A stretch of 64,000 nucleotides of DNA, taken from assembly GCF_000353285.1 (NCBI RefSeq), contig NZ_KB731324.1, forward strand, positions 1,382,577 to 1,446,576. Reading direction: 5' to 3'. The number at the start of each line of letters is the position of its first letter. The first letter of the stretch is position 1. The notes beneath the pieces were generated by a model. The model saw only the letters and a list, made by a program, of their open reading frames with translations, did not search any database and was not told the DNA's origin. Shown here one piece after another: positions 2,403 through 62,285 of this stretch. The position numbers and the translations under genes are program-made. Source of the DNA: Leptolyngbya boryana PCC 6306 (GTDB taxonomy: Bacteria > Cyanobacteriota > Cyanobacteriia > Leptolyngbyales > Leptolyngbyaceae).

Positions 2403-4208
2403 ATGCGTGACTTTCTGAAACACACCCTCGCCACTGTACTTGGTTTGTTTATTTTTCTAGGTATCAGCGTGGGTGGGCTTTTACTGCTACTCATCTCGAT
2501 TTCGATGATGGCGGCTCGTGATTCGGCTCCGACGGTGCGAGACAAATCTGTCTTAGTGTTTGATCTTTCGCAGACAATTACGGATGCGCCTGCTAGTGCT
2601 AGTACTCGGGATGTTCTCAATGATGCGATCGCTGGAAATCGTCCCAATGTGATTGGGTTGCGATCGGTGTTAGATGCGATCCATGAGGCAGCAAAAGACG
2701 ATCGGATTGTCGGGCTATATCTGAATGGGGGCAACAATCCGAATACGACAGGTTATGCAACGTTAAGAGAAGTCCGTTCCGCTCTAGAGCGCTTCAAACA
2801 GAGCGGCAAACGAATCTATGCGTATGATGTCGATTGGCAGGAACGCGAATATTATTTAGGCTCTACCGCAGATACGATCGCCATGAATCCGATCGGTGGG
2901 CTGGAAATGAATGGATTAAGTTCTGAGGGCGTGTTTTTTGCTCAGGCTCTCCAACGGTTTGGGGTGGGTGTGCAGGTGACGCGGGTCGGTAAATATAAAT
3001 CGGCGGTTGAGCCATTTTTGCAGAATCGTCGCAGTCCGGCAGATCGCCAACAAACTCAGAAGCTATTAAGTGACATTTGGACTGAGATCTTAGGTACAAC
3101 GAGCAAAGCTAGAAAGCTGACTCCTCGACAACTGCAAGCAATCACAAATCGCGCCGGGCTGTTAGACCCTCAAGAAGCCGTCAAACAGAAATTAGTCGAT
3201 CGAGTCGCGTATTTCGATGAAGTGATTGCAGACCTGAAGAAGATTACGGGTCAAGACGATGATACCAAGTCGTTTCGACAAATTAGCGTAAGAAATTATG
3301 CACGAGTTGCAGAGAGCAACCGCAATGATCGATCCAGTCGCAATCAAATCGCCGTTGTTTATGCTGAAGGCGAAATTGTCAATGGGCAAGGTGCGACTGG
3401 GCAAATCGGAGGCGATCGCTTAGCGAGACAACTGCGAGAATTACGGTTAGATGACGATGTGAAAGCTGTCGTGCTGAGAGTCAATAGTCCAGGTGGCAGT
3501 GCGACCGCTTCAGAGATTATTCAGCGTGAGGCAATTTTGACCAATCAGGTCAAACCTGTGATTGTTTCGATGGGCAATGTTGCCGCATCGGGTGGATATT
3601 GGATTTCTACCTATGCGAGTGAGATTTTTGCAGAGCCAACGACGATTACAGGGTCGATTGGCGTTTTTGGCAGAATTCTCAATGTGCAGCAACTTGCGAA
3701 TCGCAATGGAATTACTTGGGATGTCGTCAAAACGGGTCGATTTGCGGATGCTCAAACCGTTTCTCGTCCGAAAACCCCTCAAGAGCTAGCCCTGATTCAA
3801 AAGAGTGTCGATCGTATTTATGATCAGTTTCTCACCAAGGTTTCAGCTTCTCGCAAGTTGCAAAAGTCCAAGGTGGCAGAAATTGCTCAAGGTCGGGTTT
3901 GGTCAGGGATTCAGGCGAAGCAATTGGGCTTAGTTGATCAATTGGGTGGGTTGCAAGACGCAATTCGAGCCGCAGCCGAGCGAGCCAACCTTGGGGAAGA
4001 TTGGCAAATTGAAGAATTTCCAAAACCGCGATCGTTTGAAGAGCGCTTGCTCGAAAGTTTGATGGGTTCGAGCATTGAAGAATCTACCGCGATCGATCCG
4101 CTCACCAGCGAGATGAAAAAGTTCCAAGCCGAGCTAGAAAGCCTGAAATCGATGAATGATCCTCAAAACGTTTACTTGCGATTACCCGTGGATTTATTCA
4201 TCAAATAA
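2403..4208 (+). CDS. sppA: Signal peptide peptidase SppA (67K type)
   Basis: This is a membrane-anchored serine protease that cleaves leftover signal peptides; in cyanobacteria SppA is also linked to light acclimation. At 601 residues it has the double-length form. A hydrophobic anchor covers about residues 8-38. The catalytic lysine lies in the N-terminal half in YKSAVEPF near residue 199, and the nucleophile serine in NVAASGGYW near residue 396. RVNSPGGSA marks the second repeat. The ATG at 2403 gives the anchor at the right distance. It belongs to the chromosomal flank, not the mobile element. Confidence 0.95.
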   Translation: MRDFLKHTLATVLGLFIFLGISVGGLLLLLISISMMAARDSAPTVRDKSVLVFDLSQTITDAPASASTRDVLNDAIAGNRPNVIGLRSVLDAIHEAAKDDRIVGLYLNGGNNPNTTGYATLREVRSALERFKQSGKRIYAYDVDWQEREYYLGSTADTIAMNPIGGLEMNGLSSEGVFFAQALQRFGVGVQVTRVGKYKSAVEPFLQNRRSPADRQQTQKLLSDIWTEILGTTSKARKLTPRQLQAITNRAGLLDPQEAVKQKLVDRVAYFDEVIADLKKITGQDDDTKSFRQISVRNYARVAESNRNDRSSRNQIAVVYAEGEIVNGQGATGQIGGDRLARQLRELRLDDDVKAVVLRVNSPGGSATASEIIQREAILTNQVKPVIVSMGNVAASGGYWISTYASEIFAEPTTITGSIGVFGRILNVQQLANRNGITWDVVKTGRFADAQTVSRPKTPQELALIQKSVDRIYDQFLTKVSASRKLQKSKVAEIAQGRVWSGIQAKQLGLVDQLGGLQDAIRAAAERANLGEDWQIEEFPKPRSFEERLLESLMGSSIEESTAIDPLTSEMKKFQAELESLKSMNDPQNVYLRLPVDLFIK

Positions 4209-4216
4209 ATCTGAAA

Positions 4217-4245
4217 TAAAAAAGTCAGAGCATTCGTGCTCTGAC
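4217..4245 (-). terminator. Rho-independent terminator of the 4277-4492 gene
   Basis: GTCAGAGC and GCTCTGAC form an 8-bp stem with a 6-nt loop. On the minus strand it is followed directly by six T, so it ends the leftward gene; no T run follows on the plus strand. Confidence 0.85.
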
Positions 4246-4276
4246 TACATTGAAGCGTTTATCGATGGAAGCCCAG

Positions 4277-4492
4277 TTAGAAAAACATTTGCCGAGAAGC
4301 GAACTTCTCAAAATCTGCTTGGGTTTGATGGAGTAACTGCTCCCGATGATCCGGAGTGTTGGTCAGTCGGGGAACGAGATTCCGAGCTTGTAACGCCATA
4401 TGAAGTTGAAGATGAGCGACGTATTCACTGAAGTCCTCTTGAGCAGCGACTTGAGAGGGCAAGTGTGCCGATTGCTGAGTGCGCGAATCCAA
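4277..4492 (-). CDS. Small conserved cyanobacterial hypothetical protein
   Basis: This is a 71-residue soluble protein with a mostly helical, Gln/His-rich sequence (for example YVAHLQLHMALQARN) and no recognised domain. A perfect terminator lies just past its stop, which supports it as a real leftward gene. It converges on sppA and diverges from tRNA-Val. The function is unknown. Confidence 0.65.
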   Translation of the reverse strand: MDSRTQQSAHLPSQVAAQEDFSEYVAHLQLHMALQARNLVPRLTNTPDHREQLLHQTQADFEKFASRQMFF

Positions 4493-4627
4493 AACGTATT
4501 CTCCCTATCAAACTCACGACAGATGTTTAGCTTACAAACTGATTATTCCAGCAAGTCCCCAAATTGCGCCATACTTCTTTAAAGTTGTTTACGTTTCACA
4601 TTGGATTTGCGGATAAAAAATTAGGAC

Positions 4628-4656
4628 TAGACAAGCCGAGAGAAGTTTGCTACTGT
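4628..4656 (+). promoter_or_regulatory. Sigma70-type promoter of tRNA-Val
   Basis: TAGACA (4628-4633), a 17-bp spacer and TACTGT (4651-4656) stand 10 bp upstream of the mature tRNA 5' end. Confidence 0.75.
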
Positions 4657-4666
4657 AAATAACTGC

Positions 4667-4738
4667 GGGCGATTAACTCAGTGGTAGAGTGCATCCTTGA
4701 CAGGGATGAAGTCACTGGTTCGAATCCAGTATCGCCCA
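4667..4738 (+). tRNA. tRNA-Val (GAC)
   Basis: The acceptor arms GGGCGAT and ATCGCCC pair fully. The anticodon arm is CATCC-TTGACAG-GGATG, giving anticodon GAC (Val). The T arm is CTGGT-TCGAATC-C with the standard TTCGAAT loop. CCA is not encoded. An integrase gene starts 154 bp downstream, so the 3' half is the likely attachment site. Confidence 0.97.
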
Positions 4739-4891
4739 TATCCCTTGAAAACACTGTGATTCAGACACCTCAGCACTTTGACGGTTGCTGATTTGTGTTT
4801 TTAGAGGATTTTCACTGCGGCAGTAGACGGCAGGAAATGGCACAAAACGGCATAAAATTACTGAAATTGAGTACGAATTGAGTACTGAAAA
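4739..4891 (+). other. tRNA-integrase junction with short direct repeats (possible arm sites)
   Basis: No gene is seen here. AATTGAGTAC occurs twice, 11 bp apart (4865 and 4876), immediately before the integrase start. Three CGGCA words at 10-20 bp spacing precede it. Repeats on helical phase beside an integrase gene resemble integrase arm-binding sites, but this is inference. The core attachment site should be the tRNA 3' end just to the left. Confidence 0.4.
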
Positions 4892-5956
4892 ATGCCGCGA
4901 AATTCAAAGGGAACGGTTGCGATCGAGAAGATTGGAAATCGCTTTCGCCTGCGGTGGCGATGGGACGGCAAGCAAGAGACACTCGCGATCGGCCCTGCAA
5001 CAAAATCGTATGAGATTTTGGCAAAGAAAGTCGCCCATCAGATTGAGCATGACATTTTTGTCGGAACTTACGATCGCACAAAAGCCCGCTACGGAAAAGA
5101 GCAGCCGAAGAAGTCGATTTTAGATGTTTGGGACGAATTCACCGCAGCTCGCCAGATGGCGCATGACGTGAAATACAAAAATGTGCGATCGCATTTGAGC
5201 CGATGGGAGCGAACTGTGGTCGAAGATGTTGATTCGCTGGACGCGAAGAATTTTTTAGACGAGATTGGAGGAAAAGCGTCAACGCGGCGATCGTATTTGA
5301 ATCTACTGATTGCCTGTTGGGAGTGGCTTAACGTCGAGGAAAATCCTTGGAAAACAGTAAAGTTGCCGAAGGCAGAATCGCCCAGCCCTGACCCGTTCTC
5401 TCAAGAGGAGGTCGATAAGATTCTGAAGCAGTTCGAGGGCAGTTATTACCTGAATTTCGTCAAGGGATTGCTCGGCACGGGTACGCGCCCCAATGAACTG
5501 ACTCCGGTGACTTGGGGCGATGTGAGATGGCAACAGAGACATCTCTGCATTGACAAATCTTGGGATAATCGCCGCCATCAAATCAAGACCACAAAGACGG
5601 GCAAAACTCGCACCGTGCCACTCTCTGAAGCGATGGTGAAATTCTTGCAGAAAATAAAACCCCAGAACACGATCGAGGATGATTTAATTTTTCCGGCTCC
5701 GATGGGCGGCTACATCGATACGGATAATTTTCGGGAGCGACACTGGAAACCTTCACTACTTGCCGCTGGCGTGCGATATCGCTCCACTTACAAAAATCGC
5801 CATTCAGTTTGGAGTCATGCGATCGCGCTCGGAATGCCGATCGCAGAAGCCGCGAAATACGCGGGCAATTCCCCGAAAACAATGGTTCAGCACTACCTTG
5901 GATCAGTGAGTAAGTCTCAGATGCCTGATTTGTTAGGGGGAGAGGATTTAGAATAG
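4892..5956 (+). CDS. int: Tyrosine recombinase / phage integrase
   Basis: This 354-residue site-specific recombinase would integrate the element at the neighbouring tRNA-Val. An N-terminal SAM-like core-binding region spans about 75-150 and the catalytic domain 165-345. Catalytic residues visible are R199 (GTGTRPNEL), a Lys in TTKTGKTRTV, R303-H304 in YKNRHSVWSH and the nucleophile Y335 in VQHYLG. The usual first His of the HxxR box is Tyr (Y300), and the usual His/Trp before the nucleophile is Asn (N326); both substitutions occur in some phage integrases. It reads away from the tRNA into the element. Confidence 0.93.
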   Translation: MPRNSKGTVAIEKIGNRFRLRWRWDGKQETLAIGPATKSYEILAKKVAHQIEHDIFVGTYDRTKARYGKEQPKKSILDVWDEFTAARQMAHDVKYKNVRSHLSRWERTVVEDVDSLDAKNFLDEIGGKASTRRSYLNLLIACWEWLNVEENPWKTVKLPKAESPSPDPFSQEEVDKILKQFEGSYYLNFVKGLLGTGTRPNELTPVTWGDVRWQQRHLCIDKSWDNRRHQIKTTKTGKTRTVPLSEAMVKFLQKIKPQNTIEDDLIFPAPMGGYIDTDNFRERHWKPSLLAAGVRYRSTYKNRHSVWSHAIALGMPIAEAAKYAGNSPKTMVQHYLGSVSKSQMPDLLGGEDLE

Positions 5957-25681: not shown

Positions 25682-26419
25682 ATGGCAATCGTTAAAGATC
25701 TTCGCCTCCAAGCCAAAGCCAGAAAAATTAAAGGCTGGAGCCGGATGAATAAAGCTCAGTTGATGTCTGCGCTGGGCGTGACCGAACAGCCCGTAAAGAA
25801 ATCTGCTTCACTTGGAGACGCACGGGCGCGGGCGACCGCGAAAAAGTCAGGATTCGCTAAGTCGTATGCTGCTCAGAAACTGGCTGAGAAGTTAGGGGGA
25901 GAGCATCACAAGGAAGCGATCGTTAAAACAATTTCAATCGCACTCAAGAATGCTGAGAGACTAAAGCGAAGCAAACTCACGCCTGAAGAGAAAAGAGATG
26001 CTGCGGTGAGTGCGATTAAGAGCTATGCACAAAAGCAACGAAACCAAGCAAAAGCTGAAGCAAAGGGCGAAAGTCGCACCGATGTGCTTAGAGCAAAATA
26101 CGGGGATTCAACGAATCAAGCAGTGCTACAACGATATCGCGAGATGTCGCCTGCTCAACGACGCAAGCATGAAGGATTGATCGACAATCTAGAACGCGGA
26201 GCTTCGATCGATCATGACGCACGAACGACAGGTAGTAATTATATTGGCGCGGCAGGGCTAAGAGGCGAAAGACCAAAAAGCTCTGCTCAAAAGTCACTCG
26301 ATCGCTACAGAGCGAAAAAACGCAATCGAGCAATGTCGCCTGAAGAAAAGCGGACTCGGCGGCAGAGTCGGCGCGAGAATCGAAAGGAGGGAAGAGCACT
26401 CGACGGCTTTAGGTTCTAG
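25682..26419 (+). CDS. SAP-domain late protein A
   Basis: 245 residues, very basic. Residues 3-32 are a SAP/Rho-N-like helical domain (LRLQAKARKIKGWSRMNKAQ then LMSALGV). Residues about 45-120 hold the second domain shared by this set (DARARATAKKSG, SYAAQKLAEKLGG, LTPEEKRDAAVSAI). The C-terminus is Arg/Ser-rich and probably disordered. Headed by leader copy 1. Probably a DNA-binding virion or assembly protein. Confidence 0.7.
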   Translation: MAIVKDLRLQAKARKIKGWSRMNKAQLMSALGVTEQPVKKSASLGDARARATAKKSGFAKSYAAQKLAEKLGGEHHKEAIVKTISIALKNAERLKRSKLTPEEKRDAAVSAIKSYAQKQRNQAKAEAKGESRTDVLRAKYGDSTNQAVLQRYREMSPAQRRKHEGLIDNLERGASIDHDARTTGSNYIGAAGLRGERPKSSAQKSLDRYRAKKRNRAMSPEEKRTRRQSRRENRKEGRALDGFRF

Positions 26420-26438: not shown

Positions 26439-26744
26439 CTAAAGAAGATCCCCTTCTTCAAGTCCAGGAACCTCGTAGCTTTCCACAATGTTTTTGCCCT
26501 TGAGGATCGTCACTTCGTAGAACGAGGGTAGATCGTGAAGGGCAGAATCGATATCGATCGCGGTCGTACTGTCAAGGTAGATCGAATGACCAAACGCGCC
26601 CGACGATCGCGAGAGATCCTGTTTTAGGCACTCAATTAGATCGGCATCTCCTTTGAATTGGACGGCTTCGGCTTCATTACCATTCTCAACATCAAGACTC
26701 AGTTCTGCTGTTACACCGATGCTTTCAACTTGCCAAACAATCAT
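26439..26744 (-). CDS. Conserved acidic phage protein
   Basis: 101 residues, strongly acidic. The middle (FKGDADLIECLKQDLSRSSG, FGHSIYLDSTTAIDI) resembles a small protein found next to phage head genes. ATGA-coupled to the metallopeptidase gene before it, so the two products are likely made together. Function unknown. Confidence 0.65.
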   Translation of the reverse strand: MIVWQVESIGVTAELSLDVENGNEAEAVQFKGDADLIECLKQDLSRSSGAFGHSIYLDSTTAIDIDSALHDLPSFYEVTILKGKNIVESYEVPGLEEGDLL

Positions 26745-28201
26745 GATTTTTTCCGTTTACGCATGATTCCTAGAGTGAACATAAAATGCTCTGGATCTTG
26801 CAAATAGAACTCCACCATTTTTTCAGGTGAGGCAAAGCGCTCGACACCCATTGAAACGACTTCGGTTGTCGGCATTGGCTTACCCGTCTTGGGATTCAAG
26901 TAAACCTTTCCAACATAGGGCTTGAGAAAATGATCGGGAACCGCAATCTCGTTATCTTTGTAGCCTGAGTTGCCTGTGAGTTCCGAGAGTTTTTGAAGCT
27001 TGCCCGTTGCGCGACGCTTGATCCAGTCGAGTGCGGCTTTACCGACATTTGGATCTTCTGCCTCTAAATGGTGTGCCATTTCGTGAAACATGATGTCCCG
27101 CGTTGGATTCGCGCCGATGTTCACGGCTTGCCGCTTAATATTGGCATAGGCGCGATCGTCGTCTCTGGTAAATGATTTTAATGTTGATTCACCGCCACCA
27201 CCCGTAATCAAGTGGTACTCCATCGCATCGCGTCGCAACTCTTTAGCTGACTTTCCGTTCGCCGCTGCTGCATCAATTTCGATGCTATTGGCAAATCTTG
27301 TCGCTGCTTTTCTTTGTTCAGGAGAAGACTCAAGCAGGGAGTCTCTGAATTTCGCCATTGATCGGATTAACGCCTGGTCGTATTCTTGTTGTGCTTTTCT
27401 ACGGTCGCGAAGCGCTCTTCCTCGTTCCGCGAGATCCGCTGAAAGCTGCTGTCCCGACTGCCTCAGTTTTGCGGCGTGAGATAGAATTTGCTCTAATTGC
27501 TGATGTGTTTGAACGATTTTATCGACATTCTTGCGGCGCAGTTGAAGCGCTCGATCTAGTTCGGGTGGGAAAATTGACTTGGCATCTTCGATGTAGTCTT
27601 GAGATGTTTTCGGTTTCGATTCAGCCTGCTTCACTTTATCAATCTGAGCAGGTGCTATCTTCACCCGTCGCTGTTGTTCAGGGGTGGGTGAGGCTTCTTG
27701 TTGCTTTAGCTTTTCTAGTTGATCGAGGATCGCATTGATCCGCTGGTGCTGCTCTGAAGTCAAAGCAGGTTGAGTGCGTTTCGCTTTGGCTTCAGGCGCA
27801 AGCTTGTCTCCGCCAATCTGTTTCGCGGATTGCTTCACCGCCTCGATCGCCGCTTGGCGCAATGCTTTTTCGGTTGGCTTGATGCCCTGCTGTTTTAGCT
27901 CCTTGCGTTTTTGATTTAAAGCAGCTTGAATGTCGGACTTAAGCTGTTTGTGAATTTCTTTGGCATCACCACCAAACCGTTTCGCGAGTCTATCTGCAAT
28001 CAAGCTCGAAGTTTTAGCGGTTTGGAATTTGACAGCAGGCTTCGGTTTAAATCCTTGCGCGGTCTGCGTTGACGAAATCCCTAAGAATTGCTCAATCTGT
28101 GCCCTGGATTTACCGTAAGGGTTAAATTTCTTGCCCTTCGGTAATTGAGCGTTTTTCTCTTTAACTTTGACGCGAAGCTCTGATAGGGTTAGTCCAGCCA
28201 C
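26741..28201 (-). CDS. SAP-domain late protein B with metallopeptidase-like C-terminus
   Basis: 486 residues, GTG start. N-terminal SAP-like domain (LSELRVKVKEKNAQL...SRAQIEQFLGI), then the helical domain shared by the set (LIADRLAKRFGGDAKEIHKQ), a long coiled coil (about 100-300), and a zincin-like domain with HEMAHH (H373, E374, H377) and, downstream, KPYVGKVYLN and TTEVVSMGVERF (E447 could be the third ligand). The same C-terminal domain occurs in phage minor head proteins. Probably packaged with the head. Headed by leader copy 2. Confidence 0.75.
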   Translation of the reverse strand: MAGLTLSELRVKVKEKNAQLPKGKKFNPYGKSRAQIEQFLGISSTQTAQGFKPKPAVKFQTAKTSSLIADRLAKRFGGDAKEIHKQLKSDIQAALNQKRKELKQQGIKPTEKALRQAAIEAVKQSAKQIGGDKLAPEAKAKRTQPALTSEQHQRINAILDQLEKLKQQEASPTPEQQRRVKIAPAQIDKVKQAESKPKTSQDYIEDAKSIFPPELDRALQLRRKNVDKIVQTHQQLEQILSHAAKLRQSGQQLSADLAERGRALRDRRKAQQEYDQALIRSMAKFRDSLLESSPEQRKAATRFANSIEIDAAAANGKSAKELRRDAMEYHLITGGGGESTLKSFTRDDDRAYANIKRQAVNIGANPTRDIMFHEMAHHLEAEDPNVGKAALDWIKRRATGKLQKLSELTGNSGYKDNEIAVPDHFLKPYVGKVYLNPKTGKPMPTTEVVSMGVERFASPEKMVEFYLQDPEHFMFTLGIMRKRKKS

Positions 28202-41593: not shown

Positions 41594-42919
41594 CTAGCGA
41601 GACAACATCAACACGCCTTGGCGGTAGTCGGTGAACTTCGCACCCGTGAGGAAGCTGTACCGACGAGACGACTTGAACTTGTTGATTTGGTAGTTGCCCG
41701 TCCAGATTTGCAATGCCAATCCGGTATCGTCATCGGCTGCGGTGACAACTTGAGCACCCGCATTTTCTTCCGGTGGCATCATCTGGCGCGCGGAACGAAT
41801 CAAGGCTTGCTTCTTGTAGCCGACGTTGATCGAGCCAACACGAGGAATCGAGAACTTATCAGTCGAGGTGCTGATATCCGAGGTCGTGAGCTGCGTTCCA
41901 TCTGGAGCGAACGGAACCAAGGTGACAGTCTTGCTTCCGGTATTGACGCGAAGCACAACGCCGTAAGCGGTTGCCGCGCCAGAGTCGGGACCAATCCGCG
42001 CAATTTGACCGACCGCGACGTTTTGTAGTCCGGTGCAGGTCAACACGAAATCGATCGCGCCTAGATAGGTTGTGGTTGCGTAATCCGCTTTCACAAAGTC
42101 GGTATTGTTCGACATAGAAGCGATCGCCAAGGAAGCTTGCGCGCTGCTTGCGGTATCGAGATCCGCGACACCCATCTGAGTGCCATCGGTCTTGATGATG
42201 TTCGAACCGCCCACATTGAAGCCCATGCGCTGAACGAATTGCCCGATCGGCAAACCACGCTGTAACAATGCTGCAACTTGCGACTGAGCGTAAACCATAC
42301 CCGCATCCACGGGGGTTTGTTCGCCGATGTAGTCGCCTTTCGCGCGAGTTGCCAGAATCGCGTAGAGTTCACCGGGAGGGGTGTTCTCTTCTTCCAAGCA
42401 AACGGAACCATTCACGAGCAAGTCTTGGTCGAACTTGCCAAGCTTGCCAGGTGCGGTATCGGCAGTCGCAACAATCCGAATCGGCATATCCACGCCGTAT
42501 CGCACTTGTCCGGTCGATGCGTGAGTCGGAGTGCGAAGTTTCGAGTAGAGGTAGCGCTCAAACGCAGTCGCGATCGAGTACGCCATCGACGGACCCGTTT
42601 CGTTAATGTACTGCTGAATCTTCACATCGCTGTGATAAACCGGAATTGCGTTGGTGAATAGCTTTTCGAGCTTCGTGTCACCCGTGACGTATCCGGGTTC
42701 GGTTTCATTTGCCCCAGAACCAGTGCGCGGATCGTAATCTTCAGCCTCAGTAATGCGGATGCGACGAAACTTCACCGTGTCGCCCATCTCGAAAGCACCT
42801 TCTTCGTAGCCACCTAAAGAGGCTTGAGTGAAGACGGACATCAGGAACAATTGCTGTAGGGCATCAGCCGCCACAGCCTTTTCGACCATTAAAGCATCGG
42901 GTCCAAACGTAACAGCCAT
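41594..42919 (-). CDS. Major capsid protein, P22 coat-like
   Basis: 441 residues, the P22 gp5 size. N-terminal helices, then GDTVKFRRI and a long PGYVTGDTKLEKLFTNAIPV region typical of the HK97 fold N-arm and E-loop; FERYLYSKL marks a P-domain helix. A central insertion (about 260-380) would be the extra domain. The C-terminus runs to YRQGVLMLSR. It follows a scaffold-like gene and is headed by a leader element. Confidence 0.8.
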   Translation of the reverse strand: MAVTFGPDALMVEKAVAADALQQLFLMSVFTQASLGGYEEGAFEMGDTVKFRRIRITEAEDYDPRTGSGANETEPGYVTGDTKLEKLFTNAIPVYHSDVKIQQYINETGPSMAYSIATAFERYLYSKLRTPTHASTGQVRYGVDMPIRIVATADTAPGKLGKFDQDLLVNGSVCLEEENTPPGELYAILATRAKGDYIGEQTPVDAGMVYAQSQVAALLQRGLPIGQFVQRMGFNVGGSNIIKTDGTQMGVADLDTASSAQASLAIASMSNNTDFVKADYATTTYLGAIDFVLTCTGLQNVAVGQIARIGPDSGAATAYGVVLRVNTGSKTVTLVPFAPDGTQLTTSDISTSTDKFSIPRVGSINVGYKKQALIRSARQMMPPEENAGAQVVTAADDDTGLALQIWTGNYQINKFKSSRRYSFLTGAKFTDYRQGVLMLSR

Positions 42920-42978: not shown

Positions 42979-43716
42979 CTATTTCGCAGACTGCACTTGA
43001 GCAAGTTCTTTCAAGTAGCCGTCGCGATCGGTTTTCATCGCTTCACCGGGGTCAACCGTCGATTTGCCGTCACGATCGAAGTATTTAAAGCCGTTGCCAA
43101 GCGATACGGTACTCCCTTGCGTTGCGCCTGTCCCCGTGCCCCCGCGAGCCGTTGCCATATAGGCATAGTCGCCAGAGAGGAAGGTATCGATCGATTCGTT
43201 TAAAGGCTTGTAGATATCGCCGTACTCGTCTTTACCTTTGACTACGTACTGCCCATCGCGTTCGACGAGATGCCCATCTGCTTCGAGTAGCTTCAGCAGT
43301 GCTTCTGGCTTCACAATTCTGCCGGATTCCTGCAGGACATTTAGAGCGCTCGATCGCATGCTGGAGAGTTGGCGATCGCGTTCGGCTTGCTCGCGGGCTT
43401 CGCGATCCTGCTGAGACTGACGTTTGATGATATCTAGTTCGCGCTTTAACGCTGCGACTTCTGGATCAGGACTCGCCGTGCCTTCGTAGTCGTCCTCATC
43501 GTTTTCATCCTCGAATTCGTCCTCATCGTCCTCACCCTCGAATTCTTCGGCATCGGCGATCAGTTCATCCAGGAAGCTTGCAGAGGATCCCTGGATCGAT
43601 TCCTGCATCACTTCAAAGCGGCGATCGATTTTGCTGGTGATTTCAGGGATTAACTCTCCCAGTGTGTCTTTGATGATGTTGCGAATCTGTTCTTCGGTCA
43701 GAAATTGATCTTCCAC
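42979..43716 (-). CDS. Scaffold-like protein
   Basis: 245 residues, GTG start. Helical N-terminus, a very acidic middle (ADAEEFEGEDDEDEFEDEND), a coiled coil (LKRELDIIKRQSQQDREARE) and a C-terminal tail with Gly repeats. Composition and position before the coat gene are those of a capsid scaffold. Confidence 0.75.
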   Translation of the reverse strand: MEDQFLTEEQIRNIIKDTLGELIPEITSKIDRRFEVMQESIQGSSASFLDELIADAEEFEGEDDEDEFEDENDEDDYEGTASPDPEVAALKRELDIIKRQSQQDREAREQAERDRQLSSMRSSALNVLQESGRIVKPEALLKLLEADGHLVERDGQYVVKGKDEYGDIYKPLNESIDTFLSGDYAYMATARGGTGTGATQGSTVSLGNGFKYFDRDGKSTVDPGEAMKTDRDGYLKELAQVQSAK

Positions 43717-45842: not shown

Positions 45843-45862
45843 AAAAAGACTACTAGTCTTTT
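45843..45862 (-). terminator. Palindromic terminator before the portal leader
   Basis: AAAAGACTA-G-TAGTCTTTTT on the minus strand, containing the stop of SAP protein C. Leader copy 5 begins at once after the T run, so transcription may restart or resume there. Confidence 0.75.
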
Positions 45863-46878
45863 GGTTTACGCTTCGATTTTCCGATAGGCACAACATTGTT
45901 CGTTACGGCGTGAGGAGCAAGTAAGCTAGTCAGGATATCGTCATAAGACAGCCCCTCTTGCCGCATTGCTCTCACACGGGGATTTCTTGTGTCACGATGC
46001 CCCATCATAATCCGTTCAGCGATTTTGTAGCCTTTAGGGTCTTTCGTCTTCAGGCGATCTAGCATCGCATTGAGATTGCGATCGCTTCCTGACTTACCTA
46101 TGCCCTTCCCTTCTGCTTGCTTTTCTAGCCGCCCGATCGCTGCGTCCATTCCCTCTGTGATTCGCTTTCCTTCAGCCAGTGAGCTGTCTAGTTTCATTTC
46201 AGCTTTTCGGACACGGCGATCAGCTTTGGTTGATTTACCTTTACCCCCACCGTCGATCGCTTTCAGTTGCTTCGCCTCTTTGCTCTCGGTTGACGCTGTT
46301 TCCTTCTTCTCGCTGTGCTTTGGTAGTCCGCGATCGTTGTCCTTCTTAGCGCTTTTACCACCATCTACCGCTGTGAGATTGGGGCGATCCGCTTTCTTTT
46401 GTGCGATCGTCTGCTGTCGCTTCATCTGAGCTAGAAACTGCTTTTTCTCTTTCTCGCGCTGTTCTGGACTCATCCCCTGAGTAAGCGGAATATTTTTCCC
46501 GCTGGCTTTGCGCTGTTCATCTGCGACTTGTCGAATTGCTTTGGCGGCGGCTGCTCGCTTCTCTTGCGGTGTGAGTTTATCGCCCTTCACTTTTTCTGCG
46601 GCTCTGAGATTCTTAGAGACTCGCTTCAAAACTTCTTTTTTAACCGCGGCTGCTTTCTCGGCATCGCCGCCCGCTAATTTTGCAGAGAGTTTATCTGCCG
46701 CATAAGTTTTGGCAACGCCCGATCGTTGCGCTGTCGATCGCGCCCGTGCATCGCCTTTTGGTCTTGCAGTCTTCTCACTCACGCCCAATGCTGACATGAG
46801 TTGAGGTTTGTTCATTCGGGAATACCCTTTGATTTTGCGGGCTTTTGCCTGAGTTCGGAGATCCTTGAGGGTTGCCAT
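45853..46878 (-). CDS. SAP-domain late protein C
   Basis: 341 residues, start at MATLKDL (46878); an upstream ATG falls inside the leader. SAP-like domain 4-34 (LRTQAKARKIKGYSRMNKPQ), shared helical domain about 45-125 (KTYAADKLSAKLAGGDAEKA), then a Lys-rich, low-complexity middle and a conserved-looking end (LDRLKTKDPKGYKIAERI). Probably a DNA-binding internal virion protein. Confidence 0.7.
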   Translation of the reverse strand: MATLKDLRTQAKARKIKGYSRMNKPQLMSALGVSEKTARPKGDARARSTAQRSGVAKTYAADKLSAKLAGGDAEKAAAVKKEVLKRVSKNLRAAEKVKGDKLTPQEKRAAAAKAIRQVADEQRKASGKNIPLTQGMSPEQREKEKKQFLAQMKRQQTIAQKKADRPNLTAVDGGKSAKKDNDRGLPKHSEKKETASTESKEAKQLKAIDGGGKGKSTKADRRVRKAEMKLDSSLAEGKRITEGMDAAIGRLEKQAEGKGIGKSGSDRNLNAMLDRLKTKDPKGYKIAERIMMGHRDTRNPRVRAMRQEGLSYDDILTSLLAPHAVTNNVVPIGKSKRKPKD

Positions 46879-46901
46879 TGATAGAAGATTAGAAACGAAC
46901 T

Positions 46902-46932
46902 GGCATCCCATCTTGTGCGGCGTGGGCGATCC
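46902..46932 (-). promoter_or_regulatory. Late leader element, copy 6 (SAP protein C)
   Basis: Gene sense: GGATCG-CCCA-CGCC-gcacaaga-TGGG-ATGCC. The fourth pair is A-T instead of G-C, changed on both arms, the strongest single sign of pairing. Ends 23 nt before ATG. Confidence 0.88.
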
Positions 46933-46940
46933 GTGAGGTA

Positions 46941-48302
46941 CTAAGATTCAAGCTTCTGTTTCAGCGATTGATACGCTTCCTGCACTCGGCGGAACTCAGC
47001 AGGTGAACCACCGCGATCGGGGTGGGCTTTTGCCGCTGCTTTACGGTAGGCTTTTTTGAGTTCAGTAGCATTCGGTTTTTTCTTTAATCCGAGTGCCTTC
47101 ATTGAATTTACTGTTTCATCACCTGCGCGTCCTTCATGGATTGCTTTTAAATGATCGCGCAAGATTTCGGTCGATCGTTCTTCGATCAATTGCTTTTGCT
47201 TGGTTTTGCTACGAGTTTGAGCTTGAGCAGATTGGCTTACGGTAAAGCCTGTACCCTTCCCGCCTTCAACATGACGCATTACAGCTTCAACATCGCTTCT
47301 ATCAGCTTTGTCTAAACCTCTTGCGGCAAAGCTTCTGTTTTGAGCCAGAGTTTCTTTCATCACTTGCTCAGCATCTTTATCAACATTTTTCAACCGTTTT
47401 GAGAAAAGCTCAACATCGCCATTCGCCTGCTCTATAGCTTTATTAAGTTTTTTGATTTTCTTTTCTTTAGAATCAGGAGACATCCGCGAACTAGCTTTTG
47501 TTTTAGCAATCTCTTGGGTAGCGTTCTCGATTGTGCGTTTTGCGTCGTTTACATAATGCTCATATGTTCTTTTGTATGCCGCAGCGTTAGATCCAGCATA
47601 CTTTTTAGCAATCTGGTCGTCGGTTAAAGTTCGAGCCTCTTTTTCAGCCTCTTTTTTAGCTTTTGCAATTTCAGCGGGGGTTGCTTCTCTGGAGTGAGAT
47701 CCCAAATTAAGCTTTCTATTGACAATAGCTTCAACAGTTCCCGCATGGTGTGCTTTTTTCAACTCTCGCGCACGATACTCTTTCGCGAATGCCTTCACAT
47801 CATCATCACTAGGATTTGCGGAAGCATACTTATCCTCTAAGGTTTGCTTTCCACTTTTCGCCTTCTTGCGTTTCTGTTGAGCCTGAGTCATTTTGCCGCC
47901 AGTCGGGACGATCGCCCTACCTTTCGCCGCATGGCGCATTGCTTTCACTTCGCCGGAAATTGCCTTCACTGCTGCCTTACGCTTTTCCTGAACCGTGAGC
48001 TTGCGTCCTAGAGCCTTTTCCTGAGCCTTGAGTTCTTTAGCGACGGATTTGATCAGTCTTGCCTTAATTTCAGCCCGCTTTCCCTCGTTTCCTGCACCGA
48101 ATTTTTCTGCTAACTTGTCCGCCGCATAAGTTTTAGCGACTCCCGATTTTTGTGCGGTGGCGCGAGCGCGAGCATCACCTTTCGGGCGCGCTGATTTTTC
48201 GCTGACTCCCAAGGCTGACATCAATTGAGCCTTGTTCATTTTTGAGTAGCCTTTGATTTTGCGGGCTTTGGCTTGAGAGCGAAGCTGTTGAACGGTTGCC
48301 AT
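46941..48302 (-). CDS. SAP-domain late protein D with C-terminal J domain
   Basis: 453 residues. SAP-like domain 4-34 and the shared helical domain (KTYAADKLAEKFGAGNEGKR, LTVQEKRKAAVKAI) match protein C closely. A long coiled region follows. The last 55 residues are a J domain with an intact HPD (AHPDRGGSPAEFRRVQEAY). It would recruit host DnaK, perhaps to the head or to the genome after injection. Confidence 0.78.
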   Translation of the reverse strand: MATVQQLRSQAKARKIKGYSKMNKAQLMSALGVSEKSARPKGDARARATAQKSGVAKTYAADKLAEKFGAGNEGKRAEIKARLIKSVAKELKAQEKALGRKLTVQEKRKAAVKAISGEVKAMRHAAKGRAIVPTGGKMTQAQQKRKKAKSGKQTLEDKYASANPSDDDVKAFAKEYRARELKKAHHAGTVEAIVNRKLNLGSHSREATPAEIAKAKKEAEKEARTLTDDQIAKKYAGSNAAAYKRTYEHYVNDAKRTIENATQEIAKTKASSRMSPDSKEKKIKKLNKAIEQANGDVELFSKRLKNVDKDAEQVMKETLAQNRSFAARGLDKADRSDVEAVMRHVEGGKGTGFTVSQSAQAQTRSKTKQKQLIEERSTEILRDHLKAIHEGRAGDETVNSMKALGLKKKPNATELKKAYRKAAAKAHPDRGGSPAEFRRVQEAYQSLKQKLES

Positions 48303-48372: not shown

Positions 48373-50511
48373 TTAAGAGAGTCCTGCGACGGGTTTCTGG
48401 GTTTGCTGTTTGCGAGATCGCCCTTGCTGGCGGTATGGGAACAAGTCATGAACCAAGTACCCGTAGGCATCGCTAATATGACTCAGCCGCGCATCACGCT
48501 TTTTATCGATCTTTCCATCTGGTGTCCACTGCACATTTTCAAAGTCCTGAACTAAGCGATCGCACTTCTCCACTAGCACAAACGCTCGATCACTCATAAA
48601 CAGATAGTTCACCGAGATTACTCGCTCTTGTTCTGGGGGATTCGCATCTTTATAGCGCTTGCGGCATTGCGACTTGAGTTCCAATCGTCGCATCGTTGCC
48701 CAGAAAATATCCCAGTTACTTTGAGTACTGTTCGCGGTTTGGTTGCGTCCCGTCGCATCTCCGTGAACGTGAATCGTGTTTCGATGCCCTAATGACTTAA
48801 TCCAGCTCCCGACCGCTTCTGTGAGCCTAAACGTATCTGAATTGTCGAGATACCATTCTGCGATCGCGAAAACTTCATTGCCTCGCACCTGAGCAGCAAC
48901 GGCACACGCAGGGCTTCTGTTCCAGTCAAAGCTAATGTGCAGGTCAAGATTCGGATCATAGCTAAAGTCGATCGCGTCTTGCCCTCTCAGTCCGTGCGTT
49001 GCTCGATTGAACTTCTCGTAAGGTCGATTCGTTTGGCGCAGCGCCAAGTAAATCAGGGCTTGAGTTAAGGCTCCGGTCTGATCCTCAGATTCGGCGTTGG
49101 GGAAGTCTTCGAGTTCTTTCTTCAGTCCACTGACCCATAGAGCCTCACTTTCCGGTGGGATAAAGACTTTTCCTAGCTTGAAAAGTCCTGTAACAGCTTG
49201 AGCTTTTCCGCCTTCGGTATCGCCATTAAAATCGGTTGCCGTGATGGTAATTGGGCAGTCTGACGACAGGTTTTCTAGGATTGCTTTGCCGTTTTTCTTG
49301 GCTTCAATGAATAGCTCATGAATAGTGATTCCGAGTTTTGCCCACTTCTCGGTGAGATCTGAGATCGCATCTTTGGTATCGAGAAACGATAAGCGATCGC
49401 GCACTTGATCAAGCAGATAGTAACTTCCACCGCTGCGCCCCCACACTTGCAGCGTCACATAGCTTGAAGCTGAGACTTCTTTGAATTTGGAATTGAGGGA
49501 GATGATGACACGATCGAACTTGCGAGGGAGCAACACCCAGTAGTGGAACCAGTCCTGATTGAAAAGGTTTCCGCCTTCACGGCTTGGACTGCATTGAAAC
49601 AAGCTTGACCAATCGTAGGGACCAACTGAAGCCTTGATGCGTTCAAGTTCTTCCAGTGGGTATTTGCCTTCCCAAAGTGCCTCGCCGGGTTGTCTTGGAT
49701 CGTCGGGGTGAAGGTCATCAGTCGCGATCGCGGGAAATTTTACGACTGTCCATTGATCGGCTTTGGGGTTTTCCCTTGCGACTTTTAGTAGCCTTCCAGC
49801 GATGTCATCATGATGCCACGGTGTCATGACCAAAATGATCTTTGCACCCTTCTCCGCTCTAGTTCTAAACGTGGATGTGTACCACTCCCAAATTCCATCT
49901 CTTACTGTTTTTGATTCCGCCTCTTCCCTGTTTTTAAAAACGTCATCCAGAATACCCAAATCGAAGCCCATCCCGGTAATTCCTCCCCCGACCCCAGCGC
50001 TTCGATACCCACCTTGATGCCCTACAATCTCAAAGATTTCGGAGTTTCGTAGATAGCTTCCCTTTGCATCAGAAGAAACATTTTTACTGTTGAGTGTCGT
50101 ATCCGGGAAAAGCTCTCGATAGGTAGGGGTATCAATAATTCGTTGTACGTCCCGGTTTAATCGACTACCAAGATCGGCAGAATAAGAACACGCAATAATT
50201 CGGGTATCGGGGTTCTGACCGAGCGCAAAGGCAGGTAAACGGCGAGATACAGCTTCCGATTTTCCGTGCCGAGGAGGAACGAGGATCATTAAGCGATCGC
50301 ATTCTCCCCGCAGTGCTTTTTCAATCCAATAGCAAAATCTCTGGTGATGCCAGTTCACTTCATAGCTTGGTAGGGTGTAGCAAGTGAAATCAAGCAGTGA
50401 TTGACGCGCTCTAGCTTTGGCTTCCGCTTTGGGATCGTCAAGGCGAATCTTGCCCTTATCTCGATCTCGTTCCCAGTCCTTCTTTGCTTGCAGTAGTCCA
50501 GCAAGATTCAC
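48373..50511 (-). CDS. terL: Large terminase with two tandem nuclease domains
   Basis: 712 residues against the usual 450-550. ATPase: Walker A VPPRHGKSE (78-86), Walker B LGILDD (185-190). First nuclease domain 333-490: RVIISLNSKFKE has Asn at 340 where Asp is usual, FIEAKKNG keeps E403, and ESEDQTGAL has Gly at 480 in place of the last Asp. Second RNase-H-like domain 523-695: SFDWN (D529), HGDATGR (D585) and SHISDAYGYL (D681) are all present. GTG start overlapping the SAP gene stop. The second domain probably does the cutting. Confidence 0.9.
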   Translation of the reverse strand: MNLAGLLQAKKDWERDRDKGKIRLDDPKAEAKARARQSLLDFTCYTLPSYEVNWHHQRFCYWIEKALRGECDRLMILVPPRHGKSEAVSRRLPAFALGQNPDTRIIACSYSADLGSRLNRDVQRIIDTPTYRELFPDTTLNSKNVSSDAKGSYLRNSEIFEIVGHQGGYRSAGVGGGITGMGFDLGILDDVFKNREEAESKTVRDGIWEWYTSTFRTRAEKGAKIILVMTPWHHDDIAGRLLKVARENPKADQWTVVKFPAIATDDLHPDDPRQPGEALWEGKYPLEELERIKASVGPYDWSSLFQCSPSREGGNLFNQDWFHYWVLLPRKFDRVIISLNSKFKEVSASSYVTLQVWGRSGGSYYLLDQVRDRLSFLDTKDAISDLTEKWAKLGITIHELFIEAKKNGKAILENLSSDCPITITATDFNGDTEGGKAQAVTGLFKLGKVFIPPESEALWVSGLKKELEDFPNAESEDQTGALTQALIYLALRQTNRPYEKFNRATHGLRGQDAIDFSYDPNLDLHISFDWNRSPACAVAAQVRGNEVFAIAEWYLDNSDTFRLTEAVGSWIKSLGHRNTIHVHGDATGRNQTANSTQSNWDIFWATMRRLELKSQCRKRYKDANPPEQERVISVNYLFMSDRAFVLVEKCDRLVQDFENVQWTPDGKIDKKRDARLSHISDAYGYLVHDLFPYRQQGRSRKQQTQKPVAGLS

Positions 50512-51380
50512 GATTTCTTACCTCTAGGTTTTCTAGATCGAGGTTTGCTAATATTCCCGCCATCAACTACACCTAAGTGCTTTTTACCCTTGGCTTTAGC
50601 CCTCACTTCGCCCATTGTCGAATTGACGAATTCTTTTGCCTTGCGGTGGGCATCAAGCGAAGTCGTGCCGTCATCGTACTTCGCCCCGATCGCTTGCGCT
50701 TGGTCAAACAACTCTTTCAGGCTTGGTTCCTTTGCTCTGCCACCGTTGATCGTGCTAAGTCCACGCTTTCTTGCTTTAGCGGTTGTCATTGATGCGACTT
50801 TTTGAGCGTCAGCACCTTTTTGAATGTCATCAAGTTCCGCGATCGCGCCGAGTCCAACCTGCTCTTGTTGAGCCAGCCTCTCTAAGTCGCGAACCTTGAT
50901 CTTTCCGACTGAGCCTTTCATGGCTTGCCTTAATTCTTTTTTGCTGAGTTTCTCAACCTCTGGATCTAAGTCACGAACCTTGAGTTTCCACATCGGATCG
51001 TCTGCGGCGATTCCACCTCGCTTTTTCCTCCCCTTCGATTCAGGCTTACCCGCTTTGATTGCCTGAACTTCCTTCTGGATTGCTTTAATGGCAATTTGCC
51101 GCTTCTGCTCTTGCGATAAGTCTCCACCCGATGCTTTCAGCTCACGCGAAATCGCCCGTGTCAGCCGACCCTTGATAATGGCGCGTTGCGTTGCGTTGCC
51201 TTTCGAGAGATGCTTACTTTGAGCCTCGATCGCTTTCGACTTGCCAGAACTAAGTTTATGTTGCTTCAAGTCCTCACTCATACCCAGAGCGGAGAGATAT
51301 TGAGCCTTAGTTTTGAGTTTGGAACGATTCGGAATTTTGCGATCGCGGGCAAGTTTACGGAGTTCGACGAGAGTTGCCAT
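50508..51380 (-). CDS. SAP-domain late protein E
   Basis: 290 residues. SAP-like domain 4-34 (LRKLARDRKIPNRSKLKTKA), then the shared helical region (RAIIKGRLTRAISRELKAS, LSQEQKRQIAIKAIQ) in more diverged form, two copies of a KVRDL motif and a Lys/Arg-rich tail. Translationally coupled to terminase (GTGA), so its amount is tied to that of the packaging motor. Confidence 0.7.
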   Translation of the reverse strand: MATLVELRKLARDRKIPNRSKLKTKAQYLSALGMSEDLKQHKLSSGKSKAIEAQSKHLSKGNATQRAIIKGRLTRAISRELKASGGDLSQEQKRQIAIKAIQKEVQAIKAGKPESKGRKKRGGIAADDPMWKLKVRDLDPEVEKLSKKELRQAMKGSVGKIKVRDLERLAQQEQVGLGAIAELDDIQKGADAQKVASMTTAKARKRGLSTINGGRAKEPSLKELFDQAQAIGAKYDDGTTSLDAHRKAKEFVNSTMGEVRAKAKGKKHLGVVDGGNISKPRSRKPRGKKS

Positions 51381-55436: not shown

Positions 55437-55466
55437 GCATCCCGTCTTGTGTGGCGCGGGCGATCC
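55437..55466 (-). promoter_or_regulatory. Late leader element, copy 9 (tape measure)
   Basis: Gene sense: GGATCG-CCCG-CGCC-acacaaga-CGGG-ATGCG, 18 nt before the GTG at 55417. Its first base is the last base of the endonuclease stop codon. Confidence 0.88.
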
Positions 55467-56842
55467 TAGTCCTCAGAGTTCCCTAACCTCTGCTTCTCGC
55501 ATTGAACACAGCCGCGACTCGATCGATATCTCAGTCCATAACCCGACAGATTGTATTCATGCCCTCTTCTGCAAACATCTCCAATTCGATAAGGGGTTCC
55601 ATCAAGATCAGGAAAGAGTTTCGATGTTAATTCCAGCCAATACGCGACCGGAACCATTGGTTTCTTAACGCCTTGACATTCCTGTCCGCACTTGACGCAA
55701 CTCCCATGCCCTACACGCCTGAGTGATTGTCCTGTCCCCTGATAATCGTGACCACGTTTGCACAATCGACCGAGATAGACTCTAGACGGATCGAAGGTGT
55801 GAACCATCACAGGCGTTCTCAGTTCTTCAAGTCTTTGCTGTTTGAGATCAAAGTTCGCTTGCACCTTATCCCACTTTCGCCGCATTCCAGGGATATCAAG
55901 CCTTAAAATCTCCTTGGCTAACAGTTCGGCGCGGTAGTCTCCAATCATGTAGTTGTAGATTTTGCCCTTCTGGATCAATTGTGCAAGCGGTCGCTTCTTG
56001 GTCCGCCATTCATCGGTATACTGCGGTGCAACCTCATCGCAAACAGATTTAATCCAAGATAAGCACTCCAGTGTTCCGCAGAACGTAAAATTCATGCGCC
56101 CATTTTTCCGGATATGAACGCATCCATCGCCATCCAAGAAGCCTTTGATATAAGCAAGTGAGCAATCTAGATTGAGGTTGTTCGGCGGTTTCAGTGTCAA
56201 GCTTTTGCGGGGCGTAATGTTGAAGTGTTTTTCGAGATCAGGAAACCATTCCTGAGTACAACTAATTGACAGTACAGATTCGGGTCTTGCTCTTAATCGC
56301 CTTCCATCTGCCATTTTGCGATCCCTCGCCTTCCTGATTGCAACATCCCCAGTAAACTCAACATCTTTGGCAAACTGCTCTAAGAGATATCCATCAGATT
56401 CGGTCAAGCTGATCATTAAAACCTTGGTAGAGCAGTCATCACGATCGGTAACGCATCCGTCCGCCGCAATCAATCCCGCCCAGTACGAATTTAGGATGTT
56501 TGGCTGAGCAAAAAACTGGCGGTTCGCAGAGTGCTTGCAAGCCCATCGCTCCCCGGAAACCCCTATCTCGCAAATTCTTTTCTGAATTGCCGCAAGCGTC
56601 CTCCCCGACAACATCCTCTTGATTTGAGTTGCTGTTTTGTGAGGGAAGTTGTCACGCAGAATCTGATCTTCCTGCTCAGTCCAGTAGTTCTTATCTGGGA
56701 GTAATCCAACCTTAAAGGCTCTCAGGTGAACCCCTTTCACTGTTCTATGTGGCAGCAGTGCTGCTACCTCCTCGATCGACATCTTGCCGCAGTTGTCCCG
56801 CAAGACTTGCATCTCCCATCCTTCCCAAAGCTTTCCGCCCAT
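55466..56842 (-). CDS. LAGLIDADG-type homing endonuclease with zinc-ribbon repeats
   Basis: 458 residues from the ATG at 56842; a longer TTG start at 56902 would overlap the -35 box. N-terminal Myb/SANT-like repeats (KMSIEEVAALLPHRTVKGVH; ATQIKRMLSGRTLAAIQKRI). Two LAGLIDADG helices: YWAGLIAADGCV and YIKGFLDGDGCV. The C-terminus has two C-x-x-G-H...C-x-x-C ribbons (LCKRGHDY...CVKC; VCRRGHEY...CVQC). A free-standing selfish gene between tail chaperone and tape measure, with its own promoter and no late leader. Confidence 0.85.
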   Translation of the reverse strand: MGGKLWEGWEMQVLRDNCGKMSIEEVAALLPHRTVKGVHLRAFKVGLLPDKNYWTEQEDQILRDNFPHKTATQIKRMLSGRTLAAIQKRICEIGVSGERWACKHSANRQFFAQPNILNSYWAGLIAADGCVTDRDDCSTKVLMISLTESDGYLLEQFAKDVEFTGDVAIRKARDRKMADGRRLRARPESVLSISCTQEWFPDLEKHFNITPRKSLTLKPPNNLNLDCSLAYIKGFLDGDGCVHIRKNGRMNFTFCGTLECLSWIKSVCDEVAPQYTDEWRTKKRPLAQLIQKGKIYNYMIGDYRAELLAKEILRLDIPGMRRKWDKVQANFDLKQQRLEELRTPVMVHTFDPSRVYLGRLCKRGHDYQGTGQSLRRVGHGSCVKCGQECQGVKKPMVPVAYWLELTSKLFPDLDGTPYRIGDVCRRGHEYNLSGYGLRYRSSRGCVQCEKQRLGNSED

Positions 56843-56873
56843 CGCAACGCCTAGATTATCGAAACACTGCCTT

Positions 56874-56902
56874 ATTTTATCCAAATATTTGGGGTTTACC
56901 AA
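56874..56902 (-). promoter_or_regulatory. Promoter of the homing endonuclease with palindromic operator
   Basis: Minus strand TTGGTA (56902-56897), 17-bp spacer, TAAAAT (56879-56874). The spacer holds the perfect palindrome CCAAATATTTGG (56881-56892). Another inverted repeat, GGGTTT-accaatt-AAACCC, overlaps the -35. The divergent XRE gene is the likely repressor. Confidence 0.65.
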
Positions 56903-61298: not shown

Positions 61299-62285
61299 AT
61301 GTCCGATCTGATTCAATCCTCCAGCTTCGGTAGTTTCCGACTCATCGAAGAACGCGATCTACTGCAAGAATTGCTTGCCGATAAACGCAGTCCCGAAACC
61401 CGTCGAGCGTATGAGCGTTGTCTGAAAGATTTTTTCCGAGTTCTCAGCAATCAAGAGCCTTCCCCTCAACTGATCCGCGAATTCCTTGAATTGGAGCGAT
61501 TCACCGCGATTCAGTTGGTTTTGTCCTACAAAGCGCATCTGATTAGTAAGGGACTGGCAGAAGCGACGATTAATCAGCGCATTGCGGCGGTGAAATCTTT
61601 AGTAACTTATGCTCAAAAAGTTGGGAAATGCTTGTGGAGTCTAGAGGAAGTCCAAGGTCAAAAGATAAGGGCGTATCGCGACACCAGCGGGGTCGATCGC
61701 GATAATTACCTCAAGATTCTGAACTTACTCGATCGCTCTACACTCAAAGGATGTCGAGACTATGCACTGTTTCTGCTGCTCTGGTCAAACGTCCTGCGGC
61801 GCGGTGAAGTTAGCAAGATCAACTGCTCAGACTTCGATTCTGATTCTGGTTCACTCTGGATTTTAGGCAAGGGCAGAGGAAAACAGAAAGAGCGGGTCAC
61901 GCTCGATCGAAGTGTCACCGATGCGATCGCGGAATGGCTCGCACGGCGTGGGAAGGTCAAGCCAGATTCACCGCTATTCACCTCGATCAGTCGATCGTCT
62001 GCGGGGCATCGCCTCACTGGGGACGGCATTTACAAAATTGTGAGGGAAACGGCAGAGAAAGCGGGCATCAAGAAGATTCTTAGCCCTCACAGAATTCGGC
62101 ACTCAGGGATTACAGAAGCGCTAGAACTCACGAATGGCGATGTTCGTAAGGTTCAAAAGCTCTCTCGACATGCTTCGGTGAATACTGTCCTTCTCTATGA
62201 CGACTCTCGGAAGAATACTCAGGGTGAGATGAGCGAATTGCTTGCGCGATCGCTGAAAACTGGGCAAGACTCGACTTCGGCTTAA
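61299..62285 (+). CDS. Second tyrosine recombinase (XerC/D-like)
   Basis: 328 residues. Core-binding domain about 25-115. Catalytic set: R168 (NVLRRGEV), Lys in GKGRGKQKERV, H264 and R267 (SPHRIRHSG), H291 (LSRHAS) and Y300 (LLYDD); complete. Starts 13 bp from the divergent gene. A 13-bp perfect inverted repeat that could be its core site lies 380 bp downstream of the stop. Could resolve multimers of a circular form. Confidence 0.9.
   Translation: MSDLIQSSSFGSFRLIEERDLLQELLADKRSPETRRAYERCLKDFFRVLSNQEPSPQLIREFLELERFTAIQLVLSYKAHLISKGLAEATINQRIAAVKSLVTYAQKVGKCLWSLEEVQGQKIRAYRDTSGVDRDNYLKILNLLDRSTLKGCRDYALFLLLWSNVLRRGEVSKINCSDFDSDSGSLWILGKGRGKQKERVTLDRSVTDAIAEWLARRGKVKPDSPLFTSISRSSAGHRLTGDGIYKIVRETAEKAGIKKILSPHRIRHSGITEALELTNGDVRKVQKLSRHASVNTVLLYDDSRKNTQGEMSELLARSLKTGQDSTSA

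Follow-up and report, generated by a model that had tools for sequence, protein, structure and literature searches.

The open reading frame at positions 48373 to 50511 (minus strand) of the window, the 64,000-nucleotide stretch of the Leptolyngbya boryana PCC 6306 genome analysed here, encodes a large terminase in which one ATPase domain is followed by two RNase-H-like terminase nucleases in tandem. The protein, of 712 amino acids, is chimeric, and from its residues the first nuclease (NUC1) is predicted to be catalytically inactive and the second (NUC2) to be intact. This build is apparent from Pfam and PHROG matches, from a predicted model and from a homologue in G017, which represents a different genus within the same cyanobacterial family. 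The gene begins with a GTG codon, its first four bases overlapping the end of the gene upstream, and the residues on which an earlier note, made from the sequence alone, had founded its proposal of an inactivated nuclease followed by an intact one (N340, G480, D529, D585 and D681) are all read in the translation. The parts of the gene are as follows:

50464-50511, minus: N-terminal leader, residues 1-16, like that of the B-type terminase L042 (AGLLQAKKDWER versus SGLIQVKQAWER; shuffle test)
49522-50409, minus: A-type ATPase domain, residues 35-330 (Terminase_6N, E 8.6e-25; PHROG 38, E 1e-99)
49042-49521, minus: NUC1, putatively inactivated RNase-H-like terminase nuclease, residues 331-490 (Pfam, fold match and residue alignment)
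49492-49494, minus: N340, at the first catalytic Asp (T4 D401); Tyr in G017 (alignment)
49303-49305, minus: E403, kept, equivalent to T4 E458 (alignment)
49081-49083, minus: D477, kept, equivalent to T4 D542 and P74-26 D429 (alignment)
49072-49074, minus: G480, where single-nuclease relatives have a near-invariant Asp; Gly in G017 as well
49021-49041, minus: NUC1-NUC2 junction, residues 491-497, with low pLDDT at 494-498
48376-49020, minus: NUC2, intact RNase-H-like nuclease of B-type terminases, residues 498-712 (identity to L008 and L042, D6E fold)
48925-48927, minus: D529, first catalytic Asp of NUC2, aligned with D6E
48757-48759, minus: D585, second catalytic Asp of NUC2, aligned with D6E
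48469-48471, minus: D681, third catalytic Asp of NUC2, aligned with D6E

Domain build and the two nuclease sites

The identity of the protein as a large terminase is supported from several sides. A Walker A motif (PPRHGKSE) and a Walker B motif (ILDD) can be read directly, Pfam Terminase_6N scores 88 bits on residues 75-322 against a cut-off of 22, as expected of a terminase ATPase, and the match to PHROG 38 spans residues 20-499. An RNase-H-like nuclease is found C-terminal to the ATPase not once but twice, as NUC1 and NUC2, and the gene lies in a packaging and head cluster with a portal and a major head protein. The full-length predicted model has a mean pLDDT of 82.7; its NUC2 half is poor, only two B-type rows having entered the alignment because MAFFT misplaced most B-type nuclease segments against the full protein, and NUC2 was folded separately. 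An intein or homing insertion was considered as the source of the extra length and discarded, as the additional 215 residues are the C-terminal nuclease and no internal insert is present.

NUC1 is the best match of Pfam Terminase_6C (residues 350-484 in a whole-protein search) and also falls within the PHROG 38 match. Residues 310-490 of the full-length model superpose on the nuclease of the phage G20c terminase with a Z score of 16.7 (3.0 Å over 163 residues), and most 10-residue blocks of the domain exceed a pLDDT of 80; a sequence search of the A-type alignment profile against solved structures gave no match. The metal-binding triad of the T4 nuclease consists of D401, E458 and D542 (PMC9958956), and in G20c the substitutions D294N, D347N and D429N gave the lowest activity, these residues being called indispensable (PMC5389553). 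Of the three T4 acids, the first is replaced in NUC1 by N340, at a position that is Asp in 204 of 204 gap-free rows among 213 distinct single-nuclease relatives, in agreement with the inactivation proposed in the earlier note; E403 and D477 are retained in both tandem proteins. Because N340 stands at the position whose G20c equivalent is called indispensable, NUC1 is predicted to be catalytically inactive, and the loss at 340 would alone be enough for this prediction; position 340 is equated with G20c D294 through their common role as first catalytic Asp, since P74-26 D294 falls in a local alignment gap. The proposal that G480 marks the loss of the last catalytic Asp held only in part. A Gly is indeed present where 210 of 212 of the same relatives have Asp, but the last catalytic Asp is D477, which is kept, and position 480 is an additional Asp, occupied by Met in T4 gp17 and P74-26 TerL when aligned with both. 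Asn or Tyr at 340 together with Gly at 480 is confined to the tandem pair (window and G017), in which position 476 is altered too (Glu and Val).

NUC2 is matched by PHROG 10250, a terminase family, over residues 498-701 (E 1e-11), and is 50% and 49% identical to the nucleases of the B-type terminases L008 and L042, respectively. Folded alone with 38 relatives, it gave a pLDDT of 92.7, and the model superposes on the D6E terminase nuclease with a Z score of 19.4 (2.2 Å over 167 residues). The three Asp residues named in the earlier note align with those of D6E, D529 and D585 being invariant and D681 nearly invariant in a 39-row alignment, so that NUC2 possesses the three catalytic Asp in an RNase-H fold that characterize D6E/SPP1-type nucleases and is likely to be active as a nuclease. 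Both regions, and not only one of them, thus have a nuclease fold.

A homologue, the prophage and the origin of the parts

A search for the same tandem arrangement, as the earlier note had recommended, was successful: the G017 homologue has 724 residues, is 55% identical end to end and has the same domain order, which eliminates an assembly error or chance fusion as the explanation. Between the two proteins, identity amounts to 60% in the ATPase, 52.5% in NUC1 and 51.3% in NUC2. At the codon level, third positions are 30-38% identical and first and second positions 62-76%, the corresponding figures for the comparison of NUC1 with NUC2 as regards constraint being 30-32% and 62-72%; dS is saturated between the pair, so that no dN/dS is given. 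Since NUC1 is as conserved as NUC2 while third codon positions are near saturation, selection appears, from these comparisons, to hold NUC1 about as firmly as NUC2, and NUC1 therefore presumably serves some purpose other than cutting. No third tandem of this kind came to light in larger cyanobacterial samples, and the two homologues found belong to one cyanobacterial family. In G017 the small terminase and the tandem terminase are separated by a truncated A-type terminase ATPase of 221 aa that carries an internal deletion (L007 3670-4335, G017:C86); at only 29% identity to the window ATPase it is no recent copy.

The genome carrying the window (G000; 7.26 Mb, 99.99% complete) harbors the terminase gene in a prophage at 40435-63797, which also encodes an integrase, a portal, a scaffold (weak match), a major head protein and a long tape-measure-like protein. 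The prophage may be in early decay, for ATPase residue 231 (49819-49821, minus strand), a nearly invariant Arg elsewhere, is Pro (TPWHHDD), whereas G017 keeps TRWHKDD. Features of the surroundings are:

61299-62285, plus: integrase
50508-51380, minus: 290-aa protein directly upstream of the terminase (4-base overlap, GTGA), kin to the downstream Rho_N proteins
46941-48302, minus: 453-aa Rho_N and DnaJ protein, whose counterpart adjoins the B-type terminase in L042
44154-45791, minus: portal (PHROG 145), 68.6% identical to the L042 portal and 65.1% to the G017 portal
42979-43716: scaffold, weak match
41594-42919, minus: major head protein (PHROG 283), 65% identical to that of G017

At least five window proteins share a related N-terminal region (45853-46911, 46941-48302, 50508-51380 and 26741-28201 on the minus strand, 25682-26419 on the plus strand); Rho_N is recognised in two of them, one ends in a DnaJ domain and several flank the terminase. 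Relatives of these proteins adjoin terminases in G017 and L042 too. In the prophage no gene could be recognised as a small terminase; in G017 such a gene closely precedes the terminase genes, whereas in the window the position directly upstream is taken by the 290-aa relative of the Rho_N proteins. A 478-aa LAGLIDADG/HNH-like endonuclease is encoded at 55466-56902 (minus strand), directly upstream of the tape-measure-like gene.

The two halves of the protein have different affinities. Over their whole length, residues 35-490 can be aligned with A-type terminases that have a single nuclease, and a tree of this part unites the two tandem proteins in one clade (SH-aLRT 100). NUC2 falls inside the B-type clade (99/92) and is a nuclease of the PHROG 10250 kind. 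B-type terminases consist of a different ATPase and one nuclease, and occur in cyanobacterial genomes (L008, L022) and on viral contigs (L042/L043); the profile of their ATPase (ATPB) had no match in the tandem proteins, whose ATPase is A-type. At the opposite end, the leader matches L042 best among 399 terminase N-termini, a score reached by 0 of 20000 shuffles for the window protein and by 1 of 20000 for the other tandem protein. The gene order in L042 is B-type terminase, Rho_N/DnaJ gene and portal, the same neighbors as those of the window gene, with portals 68.6% identical as listed. Because leader, NUC2, gene neighborhood and portal are all B-type, a whole A-type terminase, comprising ATPase and NUC1, probably took the place of the ATPase in a resident B-type terminase. 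The earlier note had instead envisaged a new domain appended at the C-terminus, which probably has to be turned around, in that ATPase and NUC1 would be the incoming part. The direction of the change rests largely on one related phage, L042/L043.

The later history may have been more complex. A tree of NUC2 joins the G017 domain to single-nuclease proteins, apart from the window NUC2 (98/91), and constraining the two tandem domains together was marginally rejected (AU p 0.040), which points either to an exchange after the fusion or to fusion on two occasions. The G017 portal is 73.5% identical to that of L042 and 65.1% to that of the window, and the portal tree supports no branching order among the three. 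The pattern fits a mobile ATPase-NUC1 cassette passed among related phages, with NUC2 remaining alongside the portal, three phages being too few as proof.

Working of the packaging motor

Cutting of DNA, contact with the portal and a part in translocation are all ascribed to the nuclease domain of terminases, and they are difficult to tell apart when one domain is responsible for all three. A conserved but apparently inactive nuclease beside an intact one would be a natural separation of cutting from the other roles of the nuclease domain. We lean, with reasonable though by no means full confidence, towards a motor in which an A-type terminase occupies the slot of the resident B-type ATPase, NUC2 cuts and docks on the portal, and NUC1 is conserved as a non-cutting domain. 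Here a complete A-type terminase would have recombined into the ATPase slot, with the resident leader and the resident C-terminal nuclease being retained; the ATPase would power packaging, NUC2 would make the initiation and termination cuts and, as the original partner of the resident portal, would most likely dock the motor on it. NUC1 would have lost its metal site and then have been conserved as a domain for coupling between ATPase and NUC2 and/or for holding on to DNA, in the manner of the vestigial nuclease of phi29 gp16, which is retained without cutting and for which coupling or DNA contact has been proposed (PMC7672431). The whole of this division of labor is inferred.

The assignment of the portal contact differs from that of the earlier note, in which the old nuclease was perhaps kept to touch the portal. 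NUC2 seems the better candidate for docking, because the resident portal accompanies the family of NUC2 and because, by analogy, the nuclease domain is on the portal side in HK97, T7 and T4; NUC1 would better suit a place inside the motor, as a spacer or for transmission. The nuclease ring of HK97 is situated immediately beneath the portal, and contracted subunits still touch DNA via the nuclease domain (PMC10359639); data for T7 and T4 likewise place this domain portal-side, in agreement with the HK97 orientation (PMC7617512), although the orientation of terminases on the portal has been debated (PMC7672431). A more speculative elaboration, which we regard as possible but on the doubtful side, is that of two stacked RNase-H rings, in which a non-cutting inner NUC1 ring would transmit force or grip DNA and a portal-docked NUC2 ring would cut, such fusions being recurrent and each keeping one working site.

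Other explanations must be weighed against the replacement of the resident ATPase and a conserved, non-cutting NUC1. It could be that the C-terminal nuclease is the newcomer, fused to an A-type terminase, after which selection on the first nuclease was relaxed. By itself the A-part makes up a complete terminase, with the fusion point past its normal C-terminus, and such an order can arise, since a viral terminase described below (L133) carries a foreign nuclease behind an intact A-type terminase. However, a C-terminal addition leaves the B-type leader at the opposite end unexplained, and the portal and neighboring genes match a B-type phage, so that we consider this course of events unlikely.

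Somewhat less probable still is that NUC1 is a functionless relic, hard to remove cleanly from within a protein, in what would be a messy recombinant of a decaying prophage. Fusion genes are a frequent product of phage recombination, and the unusual Pro at 231 and the lack of a recognised small terminase in the window would agree with such a picture; yet the NUC1 frame is open and predicted to be well folded, and the domain is conserved like NUC2 between two distant tandem proteins, an interval over which a useless domain should have decayed. We give very little credence to the idea that NUC1 keeps some metal-dependent or altered catalysis, such as nicking, by means of E403, D477 and other ligands, both nucleases then acting, perhaps at different steps. 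Both tandem proteins do retain the residues that correspond to T4 E458 and D542, but the Asp at 340 has been lost to two different residues (Asn and Tyr), the adjoining position 476 has changed as well (Glu and Val), and the first catalytic Asp of G20c has been called indispensable (PMC5389553).

Comparison with known terminases

No published terminase with two nuclease domains, described as tandem, second or duplicated, was found in a literature search that covered few subscription journals. In a phage collection searched by tblastn, which addresses only tandems visible to that method, none of 2626 matching records covered at least 80% of the window terminase; likewise, of two long viral terminases, L133 was covered to that extent by none of its 2677 matching records and L364 by none of its 2317. 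The full-length model matches other long viral terminases in BFVD over most of its length (A0A8S5VBB5, 672 aa; A0A8S5NZ96, 1161 aa; A0A0F6SJI3, 883 aa), which may be unrecognised tandems or contain inteins.

Like T4 gp17, P74-26/G20c TerL and HK97 gp2 (Terminase_6N and Terminase_6C; PHROG 38), the window protein has an ATPase followed by an RNase-H-like nuclease. Those terminases possess one intact nuclease, whereas in the window the first appears inactivated and a second stands behind it. With the B-type terminases L008, L042, L022 and L243, for which D6E TerL is the nearest solved structure, the protein shares NUC2 and the C-terminal tail, and with L042 also the N-terminal leader, the neighboring genes and the portal; in contrast to them, it has the A-type ATPase and NUC1 in place of an ATPase of another family. 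This suggests that ATPase and nuclease modules of different terminase families can join into one motor, the resident nuclease staying with the resident portal.

The closest parallel in build is L133 (IMGVR_UViG_3300009639_000001, IMG/VR; ORF 2884-4893), which in one open frame of 673 residues likewise combines an A-type ATPase, NUC1 and a second terminase nuclease. Its second nuclease is D6E-like (E 1.6e-22 to 5oe8) and, unlike NUC2 of the window, has all three Asp replaced (by Gly, Ser and Asn), while its NUC1 is intact. L133 is an independent fusion with, judged from these residues, the reverse pattern, an apparently working site coming first and an apparently dead nuclease being appended. 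Two unrelated fusions would thus each keep one apparently working site, at opposite ends, which with two cases is suggestive only. A further A-type terminase, L364 (IMGVR_UViG_3300044691_000458; ORF at 1444, 675 aa), has an intact nuclease and a 209-aa C-terminal extension (467-675) that matched no family and was left out of the tandem count; it might represent a further degenerate nuclease or a domain of a different kind. Pfam gave no match on the isolated nuclease segments of the window (NUC2), L133 and L364, for which PHROGs and fold comparison told more.

As regards the retention of an inactive domain, the nearest system is phi29, whose gp16 similarly keeps a dead RNase-H-like domain in the packaging motor (PMC7672431), the likeness of role being an analogy; NUC1 would be a further natural case, besides phi29, of a retained dead nuclease. 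The phi29 motor has no second nuclease, packages unit-length DNA without cutting and attaches to the procapsid via pRNA (PMC7672431). The window terminase has NUC2 with its catalytic residues intact, and this argues against unit-length packaging of the phi29 type.
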